IMG/VR virus record: IMGVR_UViG_3300032087_002060 | Coordinates: 1 to 39,636 of that record | From: a virus | Direction: 5' to 3' (one strand) | Length of the DNA: 39,636 nt | Shown: piece by piece, positions 25,553 through 39,636 of the stretch | Position numbering within the stretch: the first letter of the stretch is position 1 | Layout: each line of letters opens with the position of its first letter | Translations under genes and position numbers: made by a program | Notes under the pieces: model-generated | The model's database searches: none | Told to the model about the DNA's origin: nothing | Seen by the model: only the letters and a program-made list of their open reading frames with translations

Positions 25553-27214
25553 TTATGCAAAGAAGTATTTACTTTTCAACACGTTACGAATGTCAAGTGT
25601 TCCTTTGCCTGGAGGGACAGGAACTTCGTCTGTCTGCAACCTTTCCTTAGTATACGTATATAGTTGTTCAAGTACATCATTTTTCTCAAACATATCTACA
25701 AACGCTTCTCTAAGTAGGTGTGACATCTTCCACATATTAGGGCTGTGTGTGCCGTAGCTGTCGTGAACCATAGCAAAGTCTATGATGCCTTCGTCTACAC
25801 AACGGTTAACAGTCATGGTTAATGCAGAAGCGTCTAAAGAGTGTACGAAGTTAGGTGAAGCACCACTCCGTGTCTTACTCTTACTAATCTTGTCTTCAAT
25901 GCCTTGTTGATAGTTAAGTTTAACAATAGAGCCATCAATCAAAGTCTGAATGACTTTAGTTCTGTGGTCATTGTACACCTGACGTACCAAAAGGTTAGTT
26001 GGGGTTATCCATTCCATAGGCATATTACGTGCTGAGTACAGCGAGCCTACATCCTTCACGTAGTCCATCACCTTGCGAGCTGACCCAATGACATCATCAA
26101 TGGAAGACCAGATGTGTCCAGTGAGGTACAGGCTAGCACTGAAGAAGTCATCACCAAAGGGATTGTGTGCTCCCTTGGCTACCTTCTCTTCGATAGCTTC
26201 CTCTACGTACTGACGGCAAGCGTGTTGTGTACCAGAGTAAGGGACAATCATAACACTACGCTTAGTCAGCTTGCGGTCGATACCAAACTCAAGGCACTTC
26301 TTAGCCATCTCGTTGCCTTTTGAAGCATCCAGGCGTACCTTAGCTTCGGTGGCTTCTGCTACGTCACGGTAGATGTCAGCAGGTAGGTCACAGTCAATTA
26401 GGTTTACTGCCTTACCACCTTCTGTATCTCGTAGGATACTGGATAGAATCTGCAATCCGTTGCACGAACCGTCAGCAGCTACAGGTAGGTGAGTAATAAA
26501 CCCGTGACCTTCTCTGAGGTAGCCATACCACTCGTAGCACCACGCTAGGAACTGGAAGGGTTTGTCTGCCTCTGTCCACCATAGGAAGTCGTAAGGGTTC
26601 TCTACGGTGCGTACAACGTTCTCCTCTTGCATATAAGCCCACAGCTCACGGTCTTTAAGACTAATCTTATCTTCACCGAAGTTGTTAGCACCGTGGATTG
26701 CAAGCCACTCTGCCTCGTGGTCGTTGTTGATAGTAGCACCACGGCTGAACTCTATACACGCCTTACCCCAGTCAGCTACTTGAGGTGACATGAAGGATTC
26801 AACAGGATACTTACGTCCACGGAAGTCTAGCTGCCATACGAAGAAGAACTCATCGAACTGCTGGTAGTCTTCAGCAAGCTGGATGGTACGTTCAATCTGA
26901 ATACGCTTAGAGCGTGACTTGTTGTTGAAGGAGTGGATGCTGTTTCGACGCTTACGCCATTCAGCAAAGTCCTGCTTCTGTGCTACGTTCAAGTCAGAAG
27001 GCTCAACATCAAACGGATAGTGAGGGAGAGCTAGGTCATCACGAGGAGGTAAGCCTGCCCACTCCTGCCCACTGTCCCACACTGTACGGATAACGTTTAC
27101 AACATTCTTGTTGATACGCCACGGTGTGCGCTGAAGAGCATTAACACACTTAAGCTCTTGGCTTAGGTCACGCTTCTCAAGTTCTTTTAGGTAAGCTCTG
27201 CTGTTCTTTTTCAT
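25553..27214 (-). CDS. T7-like RNA polymerase, C-terminal catalytic part (553 aa)
   Basis: This gene encodes thumb, palm and fingers of a T7-type single-subunit RNA polymerase. Catalytic residues are all present: Asp248 (AADGSCNG, T7 Asp537), Lys318 (KLTKRSVM, T7 Lys631), Tyr326 (T7 Tyr639) and Asp485 (VHDSYGT, T7 Asp812). A specificity loop lies near residues 399-415 (MPMEWITPTNLLVRQ). The end KYFFA matches the T7 end DFAFA, needed for activity. The first residues (MKKNSRAY, then RTPWRINKNV) align with T7 from about residue 301 (SKKALMRY, NTAWKINKKV). The N-terminal domain is in a separate gene at 27522-28298, so this is half of a split enzyme. Confidence 0.95.
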   Translation of the reverse strand: MKKNSRAYLKELEKRDLSQELKCVNALQRTPWRINKNVVNVIRTVWDSGQEWAGLPPRDDLALPHYPFDVEPSDLNVAQKQDFAEWRKRRNSIHSFNNKSRSKRIQIERTIQLAEDYQQFDEFFFVWQLDFRGRKYPVESFMSPQVADWGKACIEFSRGATINNDHEAEWLAIHGANNFGEDKISLKDRELWAYMQEENVVRTVENPYDFLWWTEADKPFQFLAWCYEWYGYLREGHGFITHLPVAADGSCNGLQILSSILRDTEGGKAVNLIDCDLPADIYRDVAEATEAKVRLDASKGNEMAKKCLEFGIDRKLTKRSVMIVPYSGTQHACRQYVEEAIEEKVAKGAHNPFGDDFFSASLYLTGHIWSSIDDVIGSARKVMDYVKDVGSLYSARNMPMEWITPTNLLVRQVYNDHRTKVIQTLIDGSIVKLNYQQGIEDKISKSKTRSGASPNFVHSLDASALTMTVNRCVDEGIIDFAMVHDSYGTHSPNMWKMSHLLREAFVDMFEKNDVLEQLYTYTKERLQTDEVPVPPGKGTLDIRNVLKSKYFFA

Positions 27215-27217
27215 AGT

Positions 27218-27352
27218 TTACCCCCTTGCTACTACAGTGTAACGATTGTAACGCTTGTTAAGGTCTTTCTTAACGGCATCTATGTTGTTAGTGCCCATGA
27301 CGTAGCTGTACTTACCGCCATCTTCCCATACTGTTATTAGATACTGTTGCAT
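27218..27352 (-). CDS. Small protein inside the split RNA polymerase locus, second insert (44 aa)
   Basis: The frame opens with an ATG overlapping the stop of the preceding small gene (TGATG) and ends 3 bp before the ATG of the catalytic RNA polymerase gene. The product (start MQQYLITVWEDGGKYSYVMG, then AVKKDLNKRY) reads as a compact beta-alpha protein; I recall similar small proteins in T7-like phages but no function. Its position couples translation of the two polymerase halves. Confidence 0.72.
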   Translation of the reverse strand: MQQYLITVWEDGGKYSYVMGTNNIDAVKKDLNKRYNRYTVVARG

Positions 27353-27522
27353 CACTCTTCCTCCACTACGGGTACATCACGCCATTCTGATTGGTACATA
27401 AACTTAGGGTCGTTAAGTTCCCACTTCTGCTGAAGGATTTTCTTATCCCAGTTGAAAGTAGAGTCATTGCTAACGTCGCGTACTACAAACCGTAGTTCAT
27501 TAGTTGCTATCCAGTTACTCAT
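27352..27522 (-). CDS. Small protein inside the split RNA polymerase locus, first insert (56 aa)
   Basis: The ATG overlaps the stop of the N-terminal polymerase gene (TGATG), and the stop overlaps the next ATG in the same way. The protein has a strand-rich start (NELRFVVRDV), KKILQQKWEL and an acidic end SEWRDVPVVEEE. The KKxLQQKW and EWRDVP pieces resemble small phage proteins of unknown function. It shows no nuclease or splicing motif, so it is not an intron endonuclease or intein. Confidence 0.72.
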   Translation of the reverse strand: MSNWIATNELRFVVRDVSNDSTFNWDKKILQQKWELNDPKFMYQSEWRDVPVVEEE

Positions 27523-28298
27523 CAGTGCGCCCTCACTAGTGGTAGTCGATTGATTACATCTGAGTAGTAGCCACCACCCCATACACCTTCCCAATCCCTA
27601 GGTGGGATAATGCAAGGGGCATAGCGAGGCTTACGTCTACTGTTGTACTCGTTAAACTTACGTATCCACTCTAGCGTCTCTGGCGTAGCTTCTACGAAAG
27701 TGGTGGTTTTGTTACGTGCAGTCCTGAGCTTGGTTAAGCGTACCAAACCTGTGACACGAATGATAACATCAATAAGCTTAACACCAACAAATATCTTCTC
27801 TTCGTTTGTCCACTCATTACCAACGTAACCATCAAGCTCCATCTTATGAAGGAGACCAAGGCGTTTATGTCTTCGAGTAGACTTTTCATTAGCCTTCTCT
27901 AGTACTCGTTTAGCTTTCTCTTTCTCCCCCGCTACCCACTGAGCTAGCCTGTCTTGGTCTTCGATGTGACCGCCAACAGCACGAGCTACCTTAAGTAGGC
28001 TGTAGCGTTTACTCACTGAGTCGATGACTGACACTAGGGCGAGGTAAGCTACCTGTTCTGCGTCCATCTCCTTTATCTTACCACGAGCAACACAACGTCT
28101 TGAGGACTGTGAAGGTAGCTGTAGCTCCTTAACTTCCTCTGTAACCTGGCTGACTACACCCGCAATGAGTGCTCTACCATAAGTTGTCTTACTTTCTTGT
28201 GATTGACCTGTCAGTTTGATGTTCTGACTGTCGTACCTTTCGATGCCTGCTTGGAGCATCTCATGTTCCAGATTTATCTGGTCTTCTATAGTTGGCAT
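27522..28298 (-). CDS. T7-like RNA polymerase, N-terminal domain as separate gene (258 aa)
   Basis: The protein matches the N-terminal domain of T7 RNA polymerase, which binds the upstream promoter, melts DNA and holds nascent RNA. Recognisable pieces are EAVAYI-like EQVAYLALVSVID, RAVGGHIEDQDRLAQW (T7 RAIGRAIEDEARFGRI), KIFVGVKLIDVIIRVTGLV (T7 SIHVGVRCIEMLIESTGMV) and, at the very end, APCIIPPRDWEGVWGGGYY followed by LPLVRAH (T7 QPCVVPPKPWTGITGGGYW ... LALVRTH). The stop comes exactly there, at about T7 residue 300, in the linker before the thumb. It is shorter than the T7 N-domain because the T7 front end is longer. The ATG has AGGACTAAG before it. Confidence 0.93.
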   Translation of the reverse strand: MPTIEDQINLEHEMLQAGIERYDSQNIKLTGQSQESKTTYGRALIAGVVSQVTEEVKELQLPSQSSRRCVARGKIKEMDAEQVAYLALVSVIDSVSKRYSLLKVARAVGGHIEDQDRLAQWVAGEKEKAKRVLEKANEKSTRRHKRLGLLHKMELDGYVGNEWTNEEKIFVGVKLIDVIIRVTGLVRLTKLRTARNKTTTFVEATPETLEWIRKFNEYNSRRKPRYAPCIIPPRDWEGVWGGGYYSDVINRLPLVRAH

Positions 28299-28482: not shown

Positions 28483-28571
28483 TGGTGCGGATGGCGGGAC
28501 TTGAACCCGCAAGCCATTGAAAAGGCGACAAATTTTAAGTCTGTTGTGTTTACCAATTTCACCACATCCGC
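28483..28571 (-). tRNA. tRNA-Leu(UAA), next to the integrase; likely attP region
   Basis: A complete tRNA fold is visible on the minus strand: acceptor GCGGATG pairs with CATCCGC; anticodon stem ACAGA/TTTGT holds the loop CTTAAAA with anticodon TAA; a long variable arm and the T loop GGGTTCAAGTCCC follow. The discriminator A and an encoded CCA are present. It lies 26 bp after the integrase stop in the same direction. Integrases of P-SSP7-like and pelagiphage podoviruses sit beside a tRNA-Leu fragment used as attachment site, so this may be attP; unusually, the tRNA here is complete. Confidence 0.93.
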
Positions 28572-28597: not shown

Positions 28598-29575
28598 TTA
28601 TTCTTCCAACAGACTTACACCTTGGCGTAAGTGCTTAGGTGCTAGGTGAGCATACCGCATGGTAGTTTGGATTGCTCTATGCCCCATCCACTCTTTAACG
28701 TGTGTCAGAGGCAGTCCACCTTGTACAAGTCTACTGCAAGTAGTGTGTCGAAGCGTATGCCAGACAACATCATCGAGTTCAAGATGATTCCTCACCCTGT
28801 CCCAGATGCTTCTGTCCCAATCGTAAGTGAATGGGAACAACCTAGAGCTATGCTCTGCCTGTCTACGCTCCAGCACTTCTCGTGCTCGTTTAGTGAGTGG
28901 GACGAGTCGAGGGTCACCGTTCTTGGTATCCCCTAGGTACAGCCCTTCTGAGCTGATGTCTGTTGACCGTATCTTTAGAAGCTCACCCTTACGGATGCCT
29001 GTGTCGATTGAGACCACAAAAGCGTCTAACAAGTCAGTCAAACCCCACTGCAACATTGTATCAATTATTGCACGTTCTTCTTCTTTTGTTAACCATCTGA
29101 TACGGTTCTTGCCTTCCTTCTGTCGATGGATGACTGGCATAGACTGTATCTTACCTAACTCTAGTTGATGTCGTAGTATCTTCGACAATGCAGCAAGCTT
29201 CCTGTTGATAGTAGCATTAGCACTACCCCGTTGCTTCTCGCTTAAGATAAACTCGTCAATCAAGTTTGTATTTATTTCGCTGACAACACGGTGCTTACCG
29301 AACCAGGTTTCAAGCTGCTTGATGTACTGGATGGTGTTGCCTTCCGACTTAGTGCCTCTCCAGTGCATCTCGTAACACTTATCTGCGGCATCTCTGAGCG
29401 TAACCTCCGCAAAACTGCACGAACTGTCAGGGATAGGTTTACCAAGTGCAACAGCCTGACGCACAAGTGCCTCCTGAACCGTTGCTTCTTCTTTAGTGGA
29501 GAAAGTTTTACGGTAACGGGTGTCCCCACTACGGACATATACTTGCCATCCATTACCACGTTGTTTAACTGACAT
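28598..29575 (-). CDS. int: Tyrosine recombinase (phage integrase, 325 aa)
   Basis: The catalytic set of a tyrosine recombinase is complete: Arg195 (DTGIRKGELL), Lys218 (GDTKNGDPR), His273 and Arg276 (HTLRHTT), His299 (GHRAIQ) and nucleophile Tyr308 (MRYAHL). The N-terminal residues 1-50 form the AP2-like arm-binding domain (SVKQRGNGWQVYVR, RYRKTFSTKEEA), and a SAM-like core-binding domain follows (about 60-145). It would catalyse site-specific recombination, most likely at the neighbouring tRNA-Leu. Its ATG overlaps the MarR-like gene by 11 bp, so regulator and integrase are co-expressed. Confidence 0.95.
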   Translation of the reverse strand: MSVKQRGNGWQVYVRSGDTRYRKTFSTKEEATVQEALVRQAVALGKPIPDSSCSFAEVTLRDAADKCYEMHWRGTKSEGNTIQYIKQLETWFGKHRVVSEINTNLIDEFILSEKQRGSANATINRKLAALSKILRHQLELGKIQSMPVIHRQKEGKNRIRWLTKEEERAIIDTMLQWGLTDLLDAFVVSIDTGIRKGELLKIRSTDISSEGLYLGDTKNGDPRLVPLTKRAREVLERRQAEHSSRLFPFTYDWDRSIWDRVRNHLELDDVVWHTLRHTTCSRLVQGGLPLTHVKEWMGHRAIQTTMRYAHLAPKHLRQGVSLLEE

Positions 29576-31912: not shown

Positions 31913-32557
31913 TTAAACCAATTCGCCAAGCTTAAGGGTCAAGGCGTTAGAAGCTCGGCAGTACAGTTCACCGTAAGCAAGTTTGGTGGCGTAGTCGTTG
32001 TAACTATCGCCCTTGATACCGCACTGCTCCATCCAATCTGCACCTTGGTCGGTGTTACAGTTCTGACAAACTTGATGCGCCTTGTAGTAGTAGATAACCC
32101 ACTCGCTCCCGTCTACAGACTCACAGATAAAGTCTTCTGCTTCGTAGTCTGGTGTTCCGTTCTTAACCATCTCGAAAGCTTCCTCTGCAATCTGGTTGGC
32201 TAGTTCGTCAAGCATTACTTCATTCATGAATACTTCCTCTTCTTCAGGCTGTAGGTAGATTGTTTGTTGCTTGTCTTCGTTTCCACAGTGTGGGCAAACG
32301 TCTAAGTCTTCGTAGTAAATACCGTCACACTTTAGGCACTCAACTTCTACTGTCTGCTCGTCTGCTTCTGCTGATAGAGCAATCAGTTCAGCTTTAAGGT
32401 CAGCGCCCCACATGCTGTTGGCAGTGTGCTTGTGCTCTGCTTCGTAGTCTTCGAAGGTGAAGCCAAGGTTGTGAAGCTTCTCTGCGTACTCTTTCGCAGG
32501 AGTCATCCAGATGTGTGAGTTGTCTGCGTATTCTACTGGGTAAGTTGTGTTAGTCAT
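31913..32557 (-). CDS. Acidic early protein with zinc ribbon (214 aa)
   Basis: This is the first gene after the likely early promoter. It is strongly acidic and has two Cys pairs like a zinc ribbon (CLKCDGIYYEDLDVCPHCG), and later CQNC. The C-terminal third (FICESVDGSEWVIYYYKAHQ, then YATKLAYGELYCRASNAL) resembles a domain I have seen in phage and plasmid proteins of unknown function. First early genes of T7-like phages often block host defence (T7 Ocr is acidic and mimics DNA); that role here is inference. I chose ATG 32557, with GGAAG 7 bp upstream, over a TTG at 32587. Confidence 0.75.
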   Translation of the reverse strand: MTNTTYPVEYADNSHIWMTPAKEYAEKLHNLGFTFEDYEAEHKHTANSMWGADLKAELIALSAEADEQTVEVECLKCDGIYYEDLDVCPHCGNEDKQQTIYLQPEEEEVFMNEVMLDELANQIAEEAFEMVKNGTPDYEAEDFICESVDGSEWVIYYYKAHQVCQNCNTDQGADWMEQCGIKGDSYNDYATKLAYGELYCRASNALTLKLGELV

Positions 32558-32617
32558 GTCTGTGCTTCCTACTGGTTGTTTATACAATGGCTTGGGTTTC
32601 TCCCTTGCCGATGGCTC

Positions 32618-32648
32618 ATTATAACCACAACTAAATACACCAGTGCAA
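32618..32648 (-). promoter_or_regulatory. Sigma70-like early promoter
   Basis: On the minus strand TTGCAC (32648-32643) and a perfect TATAAT (32623-32618) are separated by 19 bp. The start of transcription would fall about 50 bp before the first early gene. The spacer is longer than the ideal 17 bp, but the perfect -10 box and the location make this the best candidate for the early promoter read by host RNA polymerase. Confidence 0.6.
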
Positions 32649-32766
32649 CAACAGTTTTAAAAAAAGTTTAAGTCTGTCGAAGCTGTACCTTCTATATAGG
32701 CACATGGAAGCAACCAAGTTTTGTTTGGTCTTATTACATTAAGGAAGCAAAGAGAAGAACGGGAGG

Positions 32767-32892
32767 AAGTCTTGAGGATGTCTTGAGGGTATCGAGTGAG
32801 GATGTATTGAGGTGGGCTTGAGGAAGGCTTGAGGATGTATTGAGGTGAGCTTGAGGATGTCCCAAGGTGTCTAAGGTGTCTAAGGTGAGCTT
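32767..32892 (-). repeat. Short tandem repeat array B (left-end side)
   Basis: About eleven imperfect units of 10-12 bp, on the plus strand mostly CTTGAGGATGT, ATTGAGGTGAG and CTAAGGTGT. Read on the minus strand the last units contain CACCTT, the core of array A. The array resembles the CCTAAAG arrays (SRL, SRR) beside the T7 terminal repeats. Confidence 0.8.
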
Positions 32893-33073
32893 TTGCGAAT
32901 AATAGGGACACTCACACACAGACACCCAAAGAGGTGCTGAAGCTGTCCCCTGAGCCATCGACAGTGACCCTGTCCCATCGGTATCAGATGTTAAGTCTGT
33001 TGTGCCCCTAACCCCCATGCCTTCTGGGTTTCATGGGTGGCCTTAGGTGTGGCTTTTAACTATATCAGGTGCC

Positions 33074-33087
33074 CCCACCAGGGGGTA
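33074..33087. repeat. Perfect GC hairpin in the core
   Basis: GCCCCC-ACC-AGGGGG-type inverted repeat inside the region between the two arrays: CCCCC and GGGGG flank a 4-base loop. There is no T tract in either direction, so it is not an obvious terminator. It could be a processing or packaging signal near the terminal repeat. Confidence 0.5.
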
Positions 33088-33136
33088 AAATGGCTTCGAG
33101 CCTATACGTATACCCTCTCAGATTTTTCTAACAAAA

Positions 33137-33229
33137 ACCTAAGTCACCTTAAGCTAACCTTGAAGTCACCTTAAGCTAACCTTGAAGTCACCTTGAAGTC
33201 ACCTTGAGCTAACCTTGAAGCTAACATGA
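33137..33229 (+). repeat. Short tandem repeat array A (right-end side)
   Basis: About eight units of 10-12 bp alternate AAGTCACCTT(G) and AAGCTAACCTT(G). The shared core is CACCTT or AACCTT. Orientation is opposite to array B, so the two arrays face each other around the core. Similar in place and unit size to the T7 SRR array at the right genome end. Confidence 0.85.
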
Positions 33230-33362
33230 AGATACTATAGTGTCCATAAAGGCACACATCGCTTGCATAAAGCTACCATAGTGTCCCTTAAGACACCCAT
33301 TAACACCTAAAAGTAACCTTTAAGTCCCTACACAGTAACCTTACGGTATACATGAAGAAAGC

Positions 33363-33390
33363 GGGAGGGATTCCCTGCAAGGAGCCTCCC
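33363..33390 (-). terminator. Inverted repeat, possible late terminator
   Basis: GGGAGG (33363-33368) pairs with CCTCCC (33385-33390) around a 16-base loop. Read on the minus strand it is followed by the pyrimidine-rich CGCTTTCTTC. It shares GAGCCTCCC with the large inverted repeat 300 bp upstream. It could end late transcripts coming from terL. Confidence 0.4.
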
Positions 33391-33680
33391 TTTGTTCTCT
33401 TCTATTACGTCAAAACTATTGCAGTAGTTCGACCACCTAAGACACAGAGAACCAGATATGTCATAGGATAAGTAAAGCCCCAGTAGTAGCCAGATGAAAC
33501 TAAAGAGTTACCTCCGCTTACTAGACGCTAAGGTAGGTTGGGACACCCTTGCCAAAGCCTTCTAAAAACCCTTACGATTTGAGCATCGACCAGTAGCACC
33601 TAGTCCAGCACTCTTAAGTTCTCTTAAGGTTCTAGGCTTGAAGGGTATGTAACAAGTGAGTAGTAAGAAGTATAAGCATA

Positions 33681-33755
33681 GAGCCTCCCTAAAGGGTTCA
33701 TAAAGAATACTTAAGGTGTATCTATATAGTAATATAGTTAAACCCTGGGAGGCTC
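33681..33755. repeat. Large inverted repeat just downstream of the phage promoter
   Basis: GAGCCTCCC at 33681-33689 pairs with GGGAGGCTC at 33747-33755. With a 3-base bulge the stem extends by AGGGTT/AACCCT to 15 bp. The 42-base loop is AT-rich. It begins 5 bp after the likely transcription start at 33760, so the first transcribed RNA folds at once. This may support origin firing or terminal-repeat processing. Confidence 0.75.
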
Positions 33756-33759
33756 ACGC

Positions 33760-33775
33760 CTATAGCAGTGGGTTT
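33760..33775 (-). promoter_or_regulatory. Phage promoter near the right genome end (phiOR-like)
   Basis: Third exact copy of AAACCCACTGCTATAG, here with TTA upstream so that the 18 bases TAAAACCCACTGCTATAG align closely with the T7 promoter (TAATACGACTCACTATAG). It lies between terL and the genome ends and drives no nearby gene, like T7 phiOR, which serves as a replication origin and in terminal-repeat duplication. Confidence 0.85.
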
Positions 33776-33834
33776 TAATGCCCTTTTAAATCAATGACTT
33801 ACAAGCCTGCTAAGGCTGTTTTTACATCAAGTGA

Positions 33835-35499
33835 CTACATCCAAGTTGTACTAGACCTTGAAGACCCCATAACGTTAATGCCATTCAAGAACTTATCCAG
33901 TTCCTTAGCCATCAGTTCATTCCTACGGTCAAGTATCTCACGGTCTGCATCAGCAGCCATCTGTTCTACCCAGTAGGCACAAGCCATAGCTAGTACATCA
34001 AGACGGTCATCGTGAGCTAGAGCACCTTTGTCTCTCGTAATTCGTGACATCTGATAAGCAAGCATATAGCGTTGAGCTTTCTCTGGTGGATGGTGTTGTA
34101 CGGAGTTGTAATCATCTATGATAACCTTGGGGTCTATGACCAGTCTGTGCTGGTTCATTATAGGCTCAAGGGTATCTATGATACGAGCTTCCTTCTGCTT
34201 ACTGTGTCTCACCTCTTCGATGGTCACAGGGTGTGTCTTCATCAAGTAAGGTTTGAACAACTCAGTAAACATACCGTCACCAAAGTTACTCTCTATGAGA
34301 ACCATGTTGACCTTACTGGTCTTAGCTATCTTAGCCAAAGATTCTAGGGTCTCCTTAGAGTAACCCCCAGCTATGCCTCCAGCTTCAGTCACGTAGAGGT
34401 AACCATTGAGCATCTTAACGACAGCATAAGCTGTTTCATCGGCACCACGACCAGAGGGGTCAATAGCCAGTACTGAGCCAGTGTACTCAGAACGTCCTAT
34501 AAGGCTCTCTGGGGCGTAGTACTTGTCACCCGCAAGGCCAACATTAGGTAAGTCCAAAAGAGGCTTCATAATGCCGTACACGGCCTTCTCAGGGGCAGTA
34601 TCATTGTCACAAGACATAATCATCAAGTCAGACAACTTCAGTGGGTATCTGTCAGCATCACTTAGGGATGTATCAAGCATGAACTGAAGGGCAAAGCCTG
34701 AACGACCATAAGACAACTCACGCTCTAATAGGTCTTCCTCGTTAAAGCGTTTAGGGTCTGTAGGTCTACCTGATAAGCTTGGGTCTTCTTGTATCTTCTC
34801 GTAAAGGAAAGGAGCTAGCTTCTCACCATACTTCTTCTCTACCTCTTCACCTACAGGATACCTAGCAGGCCAGATACGTAGTTGGTAGCCACGCTCAGTA
34901 AGTGTGTTGTACAGTGACATCTCACACTGAGGAGTACCTAGGTAGATAATCTTACCTTCTGGTTTAAGTACCGCATCGAACTCCTTTACGGACTCACTGA
35001 GGCGTTCCCTCATGGTCTGAGTCATGGAGTTGTTTGGTACTTCCACGTCATCGGCAATGATAATGTCTGCACGAGAACCTGTAAGCTGACCTGTGATACC
35101 TACTGACTTAACCGAAGCAGAGCCAGAGGCTTTAGCTGGAGCTACGTCAAAGGCTATCTTAGACCACCGTTGGTCTCCCTTAGCTACCAAGTGTTGACAG
35201 ATTGGCAACTCCATAATGATACGTTGGGTGAAGGTAGAGAAGTCATCAGCTCGTGCTTTGGATGCTGATACGACCATGAACTTCTTGTCAGGGTCTAGCA
35301 GTAGTTGATGGACTACGAAAGCACAGGTAATGTATGACTTCCCTACCCCACGGAACGCTTCGATAATGGAACGCCTAGGAGCAGTCTGTAGGAACTCTGC
35401 AATGTCATATTGTACAGGTGTAGGGTCTGGTAGGTTTAGGTGTTTCCACACCAAGTACATGAAGTTACGAAAGTCTTTAAGCTGTTCTGGGATTTCCAT
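33835..35499 (-). CDS. terL: Terminase large subunit, T7 gp19-like (554 aa)
   Basis: The ATPase and nuclease that packages DNA. Walker A is AFRGVGKS (48-55) and Walker B IIIADD (146-151). The nuclease part has AIDPSGRGADETA, VLIESNFGDGMF and HDDRLDVLAMA, giving the three acidic sites. Length is close to T7 gp19 (586). The start overlaps the phoH stop (TAATG). It is the last late gene before the non-coding genome ends, as in T7. Confidence 0.96.
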   Translation of the reverse strand: MEIPEQLKDFRNFMYLVWKHLNLPDPTPVQYDIAEFLQTAPRRSIIEAFRGVGKSYITCAFVVHQLLLDPDKKFMVVSASKARADDFSTFTQRIIMELPICQHLVAKGDQRWSKIAFDVAPAKASGSASVKSVGITGQLTGSRADIIIADDVEVPNNSMTQTMRERLSESVKEFDAVLKPEGKIIYLGTPQCEMSLYNTLTERGYQLRIWPARYPVGEEVEKKYGEKLAPFLYEKIQEDPSLSGRPTDPKRFNEEDLLERELSYGRSGFALQFMLDTSLSDADRYPLKLSDLMIMSCDNDTAPEKAVYGIMKPLLDLPNVGLAGDKYYAPESLIGRSEYTGSVLAIDPSGRGADETAYAVVKMLNGYLYVTEAGGIAGGYSKETLESLAKIAKTSKVNMVLIESNFGDGMFTELFKPYLMKTHPVTIEEVRHSKQKEARIIDTLEPIMNQHRLVIDPKVIIDDYNSVQHHPPEKAQRYMLAYQMSRITRDKGALAHDDRLDVLAMACAYWVEQMAADADREILDRRNELMAKELDKFLNGINVMGSSRSSTTWM

Positions 35500-36176
35500 T
35501 AAATATTCTCTTTATAGAACATCCTAACCATCTGAGCACAAGTGTCTGAACGTACAATGTCATCAAGGTCAAACTCGATAACACCACAGCCCACAGGGTC
35601 ATGTCGGTCTAGCATATCCACAAAGGACATTAGACCACTACGGTTCTGTAGGTCTGATTGCTTAGGGTCACCCATAAGGACAAGCACAGAGCCTTCACCA
35701 ATACGTGTAGTGATTGCTTTAAGCTCGTCTATGGTTAACTGCTGGGCTTCATCGACCAGTATCATAGCGTTCTGGAAGGAACGACCACGAATAGTCTCAA
35801 TAGCTACAGTCTCAATACGACCACGCTTTACGTTGTACTCATAGAAACCTTTGCCCAATGCCTCGCGTAATACGTCGGTCATCGGCATCATCCAAGGCTC
35901 TAGTTTCTCTTCAAGAGTACCAGGCACAGCACCCAAGGATTTACCCGTGGATACGTTAGCTCGTGTTAGAATGATATGATGGATGGCTCCCCTAACCAAC
36001 CATGAGGCTGCTTTAACACAGCAAGTATAAGTCTTGCCTGTACCAGCAGGGCCAAGTGCTACCATTAGATTCACATTGTCTAAGTCATGGTAGAGTTCTG
36101 CTTGGCCTTGGGTCTTCGGAGAGTAGTGAATTGTAGGTTTGTGGTTAATTACGTTAGCGGTTTCTTTACGCTTCAT
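35499..36176 (-). CDS. phoH: PhoH-like P-loop ATPase (225 aa)
   Basis: The protein has Walker A GPAGTGKT (42-49), Walker B MILVDEAQQ and the PhoH-family segments ARANVS-like TRANVSTGKSLGAVPG and LVLMGDPKQSDLQ. PhoH genes are common in marine phages; host PhoH is linked to phosphate stress and RNA turnover, but the phage function is not settled. Here it lies inside the packaging operon, coupled to terL by TAATG, which is unusual for an auxiliary gene and suggests a late role. Confidence 0.92.
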   Translation of the reverse strand: MKRKETANVINHKPTIHYSPKTQGQAELYHDLDNVNLMVALGPAGTGKTYTCCVKAASWLVRGAIHHIILTRANVSTGKSLGAVPGTLEEKLEPWMMPMTDVLREALGKGFYEYNVKRGRIETVAIETIRGRSFQNAMILVDEAQQLTIDELKAITTRIGEGSVLVLMGDPKQSDLQNRSGLMSFVDMLDRHDPVGCGVIEFDLDDIVRSDTCAQMVRMFYKENI

Positions 36177-36184
36177 AAACTACC

Positions 36185-36406
36185 TTATTGGTTGCGGCTA
36201 CGGTTCTCTTTTTTGGTCTGAATACGCAGGTTAGAATAAGCGTTGTTATTAGCGTTACGGTCTTTGTGGTCTACATCTTTACCAGCAAGAGCCGCTTTAC
36301 CAACCTTCTTAATCATCAGCCTACGAGCTTTAACACGACCAGCTCGTTTCTTCTTTTGTTCAGGTTTTCCGTGGTAGTTCTGGTATTCCTTCTTGTAGTC
36401 ACGCAT
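36185..36406 (-). CDS. Small HNH-type endonuclease-like protein (73 aa)
   Basis: The C-terminal half reads KDVDHKDRNANNNAYSNLRI, which matches the HNH pattern (DHxDxxxxNNxxxNL). The N-terminal half is very basic. HNH proteins next to terminase help packaging in several phages, while others are selfish homing enzymes. Tight TAATG coupling to the small terminase gene and the plain gene order favour a packaging role, without proof. Confidence 0.8.
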   Translation of the reverse strand: MRDYKKEYQNYHGKPEQKKKRAGRVKARRLMIKKVGKAALAGKDVDHKDRNANNNAYSNLRIQTKKENRSRNQ

Positions 36407-36621
36407 TATTGTAATCTCTCAGCCATCTCAAATGGGAGAGCTTGTAGCAGGTCAGCCATAGGGTTCTCTGCTGTAATTACGTCTAGGTTTGCTCCATTGT
36501 CTTTAAGGAACTTAACGGCAACCGAAAGCTCCTGACTGGTAGCTTGACCTGACTGAACTCGTGCCAGTAGGTCGTTAGCCACAGCAGAATGAAGCAAGTC
36601 TATGATGTCTTTACTTTCCAT
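36406..36621 (-). CDS. terS: Terminase small subunit, T7 gp18-like (71 aa)
   Basis: A short helical protein with LLARVQSGQATSQELSVAVKFLKDNGANLDV, here quoted in parts as ARVQSGQATSQELSVA and KFLKDNG, which is the typical pattern of small terminase proteins in marine T7-like phages. The tail DLLQALPFEM is also family-like. T7 gp18 has 89 residues. It overlaps the endolysin end by 22 bp and precedes HNH, phoH and terL. Confidence 0.8.
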   Translation of the reverse strand: MESKDIIDLLHSAVANDLLARVQSGQATSQELSVAVKFLKDNGANLDVITAENPMADLLQALPFEMAERLQ

Positions 36622-39531: not shown

Positions 39532-39636
39532 TTACGCCCCCTCCTGAATTACTTCAGCCTGTTGAGCCAACATAGCCGCTTCAGCTTCAGCCTGACGCTC
39601 TGCCGCAGTCTTAACGACACCATTAGCAAACGCATA
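39532..39636 (-). CDS. C-terminal end of a protein cut by the window edge
   Basis: The last 34 codons of a minus-strand gene are visible (YAFANGVVKTAAERQAEAEA, ending AQQAEVIQEGA and TAA). The Ala/Glu/Gln-rich helix and its place before the adhesin suggest the end of a fibre or fibre-associated protein. If the genome is circular, it could belong to the fibre gene starting at 1195 or to a gene between them. Confidence 0.6.
   Translation of the reverse strand, partial: YAFANGVVKTAAERQAEAEAAMLAQQAEVIQEGA

Follow-up and report, generated by a model that had tools for sequence, protein, structure and literature searches.

The interval that separates the terminase gene from the first early gene (32588–33834) is probably the concatemer junction of a temperate T7-like phage, in which two short-repeat arrays of opposite orientation flank a single predicted terminal repeat and act as phased docking sites for an accessory factor. 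The DNA analyzed, hereafter the window, is the whole 39,636-nucleotide stretch of a viral metagenomic record. Because its main genes all lie on the minus strand, the junction is described in the minus-strand (T7) orientation. In that order, and with a slash marking the cut in all sequence patterns, its features are:

36406–36621, minus strand: terminase small subunit of the T7 gp18 type (Pfam PF11123 DNA_Packaging_2, E 3.8e-13)
33835–35499, minus strand: terminase large subunit of the T7 gp19 type (PHROG 38, E 3.5e-121; tblastn)
33141–33231, minus strand: SRR-like array A, separating the terminase large subunit gene from the terminal repeat
33082–33124, minus strand: left-end cleavage signature AATCTGAG-N2-GGTA/T-N24-CCCC, by pattern match
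33110–32904, minus strand: predicted terminal repeat, one copy of 207 bp, by alignment with known repeats
32763–32887, minus strand: SRL-like array B, lying past the terminal repeat and ahead of the early genes
31913–32587, minus strand: first sizeable ORF past the junction, at the start of the early region, without a family match

The gene content and gene order of the window are those of a T7-type (Autographiviridae-like) phage. It encodes a single-subunit RNA polymerase of the T7 type, follows an early-middle-late order, and carries both gp19-type and gp18-type terminases; the large subunit gene is the last before the junction, and the late region closes with a left-end boundary signature. 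The T7-type terminases, the T7 gene order, and a single match to the signature support the original prediction that the physical genome ends lie in this interval. With its single copy of the terminal repeat lying inside it, the contig is permuted through this element. The window had also been taken for a probable circularized assembly, which is right as to the permutation and unsupported as to closure: a tail-fiber ORF starting near position 1198 is open to position 1, and its frame is not continued at 39636, so some sequence is missing at the contig ends (1–1200 and 39504–39636), which fall within the tail-fiber region and where a search for an end repeat found none. The contig is thus permuted through the repeat, yet no closed circle is shown.

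Elsewhere in the window, an integrase (28598–29575) lies next to a complete tRNA-Leu with anticodon TAA (28483–28571), an arrangement that probably marks a temperate T7-like phage whose attachment site lies within the tRNA, much like LUZ100 and pelagiphages. The RNA polymerase gene (25553–28298) is split into two ORFs (27522–28298 and 25553–27214), ~307 nt apart, that match adjacent parts of one profile; the gap has no Rfam intron match, and an intron, an insertion, or a frameshift is possible. A 73-residue ORF with an HNH_3 endonuclease domain (36185–36406) is flanked by the small terminase gene and a PhoH-like gene (35499–36176).

The terminal repeat was placed by alignment with the repeats of T7 (160 bp), T3 (231 bp), HTVC019P (162 bp), and P-SSP7 (206 bp). 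Its left end is firmly predicted at T33110, after GAGAGGGTA, and its right end at T32904, after GTGTCCCT and before ATTATT, to within ~5 nt. A core of ~240 bp had been proposed between the arrays (32890–33140); it contains the repeat and is slightly too long, the repeat itself spanning 32904–33110. The left-boundary rule, also written AAAAATCTGAG-N2-GGTA/T-N24-CCCC, fits T7, T3, ICP3, and HTVC019P. The composite signature has one perfect match in the window and no other at three or fewer mismatches (0.05 expected by chance), which sets the left end at 33110. The left edge reads AAAAATCTGA[GA]TGNNTA/TCTCA...CCCCC in T7 and T3 and GAAAATTATGAGGGGGTA/TCG...CCCCC in HTVC019P, with identical spacing in all three phages, the cut falling 6 nt past GA[GA] and CCCC starting from +25. 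P-SSP7, which was held out from the rule, fits it closely (AAATGTCTGAGGTCATA/TATACG, CCCC at +26), and Syn5, phiKMV, and SP6, likewise not used for the rule, have CCCC at +24, +25, and +28 and looser upstream halves. Across 106 unique metagenomic contigs picked solely on the upstream half of the signature, CCCC at +25 to +28 is conserved at 87–97%. The annotated repeat of LUZ100 (L193) begins 12 nt later than the rule predicts, and its ends may need re-mapping. From the signature, the left genome end of a T7-like contig can be predicted with single-base precision and no need for reads, so that mis-permuted metagenomic genomes can be re-oriented. A near-palindrome, GAGGGTATACGTATAGGCTC, spans the predicted left cut at 33098–33117, and GTATACGTATA is seen again in several relatives. 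By itself, the terminal repeat shows no unusual foldback pairing (z -1.27).

At the right edge, T7 and T3 read TGTCCCT/ATCTGTT, and ATCTGTT is found there in ICP3 and Syn5 as well, whereas the window has ATTATT, and its gene strand lacks at this position the ATCTGTT element at which RNA polymerase pauses in the T7 concatemer junction. ATCTGTT is a class II terminator (PMC11617373), and at the right edge of relatives it is strand-specific, with 20 forward and 1 reverse occurrences in 91 junctions. A search with an exact right-end pattern gave no match, and sigma-70 and terminator scans of the junction gave no excess over shuffles.

The two arrays rank as the top two 100-bp stretches of the whole window for repetitiveness. 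The 6-mer pair count is 97 for array A (dinucleotide shuffles 1.9 ± 1.8, maximum 11) and 92 for array B (7.1 ± 3.4, maximum 23). Array A consists of 7–8 units of 11 bp that read GTGACTTCAAG or GTTAGCTTAAG in the T7 orientation; the two 11-mers alternate, generating a near-perfect tandem with a super-period of 22 bp. Array B has a repeat-proximal part of three 9-bp units (CACCTTAGA and CACCTTGGG) and a distal part of eight ~11-bp units (ACATCCTCAAG in the T7 orientation), whose CCTCA core is invariant in all eight copies while the linkers vary. The array period is 11 bp, with autocorrelation peaks at 11, 22, and 33, in keeping with the 10–12 bp spacing first described; the 9-bp spacing is confined to the three units of array B closest to the terminal repeat. 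Short phased repeats directly flank the terminal repeat on both sides, as SRL and SRR do in T7, with the units CCTCAAG and CTTCAAGGT in place of the T7 unit CCTAAAG.

Polarity was determined by comparing all 10-mers of both flanks, with a match defined as at least 8 of 10 positions. Arrays A and B share 89 inverted matches (shuffles 19.3, z 7.9) versus 13 direct matches (shuffles 10.2, z 0.5), and a comparison at k = 7 gives 10 inverted versus 0 direct. The two oppositely oriented arrays of the original prediction are thus confirmed as real, highly non-random, and inverted, and the unit is not shared in direct orientation as it is between SRL and SRR of T7. A motif-only YHTMAAG test had indicated a same-strand arrangement, a reading abandoned in the light of the all-against-all 10-mer test and of independent contigs; this looser motif reads same-strand in both arrays because the unit core is nearly palindromic, and as the weaker test of polarity it was not relied on.

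Arrays of both polarities exist among relatives, classified in fixed windows of 150 bp before the signature and ~200–340 bp after the repeat. T7 had been cited as having comparable arrays; these are indeed present beside its repeats, but they are direct (155 matches, shuffles 22.6, z 15.3), so the window departs from the T7 arrangement rather than copying it. The arrays of T3 (81 matches, z 6.9), ICP3 (130 matches), and contig L123 (175 matches) are also direct. By the same 10-mer test, P-SSP7, Syn5, SP6, phiKMV, HTVC019P, and LUZ100 have no mutually matching arrays. Inverted arrays occur in the window and eight other contigs (L250, L252, L256, L257, L263, L265, L125, and L156), the last two with sequences unlike the CCTCAAG type. 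Two contigs (L006 and L007, 85% in the terminase large subunit) appeared inverted by eye from their TTGAGGA units and failed the 10-mer test.

A blind scan of IMG/VR with the B-side motif alone (three CCTCAAG units 11 bp apart) returned 17 contigs. In eleven of them a T7-type terminase lies upstream in the same orientation, and four of these eleven represent a single phage in near-identical form. Contig L251 has a distant terminase match, located on the opposite strand, and five have no terminase match, L263 among them carrying the end signature. At the nine distinct junctions examined, the reversed motif prevails on the A-side flank by 40 to 9 (shuffles 14.3; p 9e-6), counts that are not fully independent, as the contigs are related, and six of these junctions (L250, L252, L256, L257, L263, and L265) are inverted by the 10-mer test. 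On the terminase tree, the inverted form appears in three groups (the window; L250/L252/L256/L257/L265; L125/L156) and the direct form in at least two (T7/T3/ICP3; L123/L231), with a parsimony count of two polarity changes on what is a quick tree with some long branches. The array motif is common to both flanks of one genome and differs between lineages: arrays of the same genome match each other better than those of different genomes (permutation P 0.00065 for the inverted set and 0.04 for the direct set). Arrays with z > 5 are present in 9 of 115 relatives on the A side and 13 of 72 on the B side. Counts of GC-strand tetramers over all 130 junctions revealed no general polarity, a bias being seen only in phages with arrays, and a search for relatives through the first early gene found nothing.

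The window shares with T7 and T3 the left-boundary signature, arrays on both sides of the repeat, a unit of ~11–12 bp, and a C-rich unit on the gene strand of the early-gene side, CCTAAAG in T7 and T3 and CCTCAAG in the window. Cyanophage P-SSP7, with a 206-bp repeat and experimentally sequenced ends, was first assembled as a circle (PMC3350473), much as the window contig is permuted through its repeat of nearly the same length; both have the left-boundary signature, and P-SSP7, unlike the window, lacks mutually matching arrays. The temperate T7-like Pseudomonas phage LUZ100 has 244-bp repeats (PMC10134795) and, like the window, an integrase with tRNA-Leu, CCTCAAG units adjoining the repeat, and a signature of the same class. 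Its units precede the repeat, where they are oriented like array B and unlike array A, and no clear array follows the repeat. In the Yersinia fPS T7-like phages, repeat arrays flank the terminal repeats on both sides and poly-C tracts lie within the repeat, both as in the window, and copy number varies among near-identical phages, with 11–34 repeats by the left repeat and five repeat types by the right (PMC5923468).

T7-like genomes join through the terminal repeat into concatemers, as cited in two papers (PMC3350473, PMC3276506). Along the minus strand of the window, such a junction would run from array A in the SRR position through the left-end signature and the single 207-bp repeat to array B in the SRL position. 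In T7, duplication of the repeat accompanies cutting at its two edges by the gp18/gp19-type terminase, and the corresponding terminase of the window phage would do the same. The arrays most likely serve as phased sites to which a factor for end processing or packaging binds. Their 11-bp units on both flanks would dock one factor, which would encounter the same unit whichever way it left the repeat and would help hold the repeat during processing of both ends; candidates are the small terminase and DNA-binding proteins of phage or host origin. Since related phages have direct, inverted, or no arrays, this factor would be accessory and not tied to packaging direction. The absence of arrays from P-SSP7, Syn5, and most relatives and their varying copy number in the fPS phages (PMC5923468) likewise argue for an accessory element, and a required role is unlikely when most relatives lack significant arrays. 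The earlier suggestion of a protein-wrapped cutting site is unsupported for the arrays, as the conserved cutting signal is a separate element by the repeat boundary that most relatives have without arrays. We hesitate, leaning slightly against, over a more specific version in which the arrays are a motif-matched pair whose relative polarity flipped in evolution; such a flip between terminase lineages would point to one factor acting symmetrically about the repeat, and the inverted form would be a distinct, undescribed junction architecture.

An unlikely but still serious alternative is that the arrays are functionless, arising as a selfish or neutral tandem expansion through slippage and gene conversion and tolerated in a non-coding gap. 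The near-perfect 22-bp tandem of array A, the loss of arrays in many relatives, and the varying copy number among near-identical fPS phages (PMC5923468) are all consistent with such an origin. The CCTCA core, however, is invariant in the eight copies of array B despite their differing linkers, and within each genome separate arrays share an inverted motif across the repeat (207 bp in the window), for which slippage alone is insufficient.

A hairpin intermediate in repeat duplication has been proposed for T7, and inverted arrays could pair in a single-stranded junction with the repeat in the loop. The inverted polarity of three lineages agrees with this idea, as do the predicted array-to-array pairing (42.6 pairs versus 25.4 ± 10.9 for shuffled arrays) and the minimum free energy (-60.5 versus -54.9 ± 3.2 kcal/mol). 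We nevertheless regard it as improbable: the pairing excess is below two standard deviations, the 11-bp units pair in pieces only, and the direct arrays of T7, T3, ICP3, and L123 are unable to pair in this way, although T7 ends form normally.

The two remaining readings are the least likely. A role in the lysogenic cycle, as integrase arm sites or a partition/iteron origin, would suit a phage with an integrase and tRNA-Leu and is very improbable, given that this site is >3 kb from the arrays and that lytic T7, T3, and ICP3 carry arrays at the same place. Equally remote is the view that the ends lie elsewhere, through cos or headful packaging, and that the interval is an ordinary intergenic repeat cluster, against which stand the T7-type terminase and gene order and the sole occurrence in the window of a signature found at known genome ends. 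Primase sites, considered by eye only, were also rejected, as the GACC-rich linkers of T7 have no counterpart in the window.

Arrays beside the T7 terminal repeats have been known for decades, and the open-access literature searched yielded no stated function for them. What is new here is that flanking arrays occur in two polarities, direct and inverted; together with the shared motif and the frequent absence of arrays, this limits the roles they could play. Several bacterial genome records (including L220, L226, L231, L238, and L243) carry a T7-type terminase followed by a signature-like element, defined by a looser pattern than that of the window, and these are likely prophages in which the end junction is kept internal.
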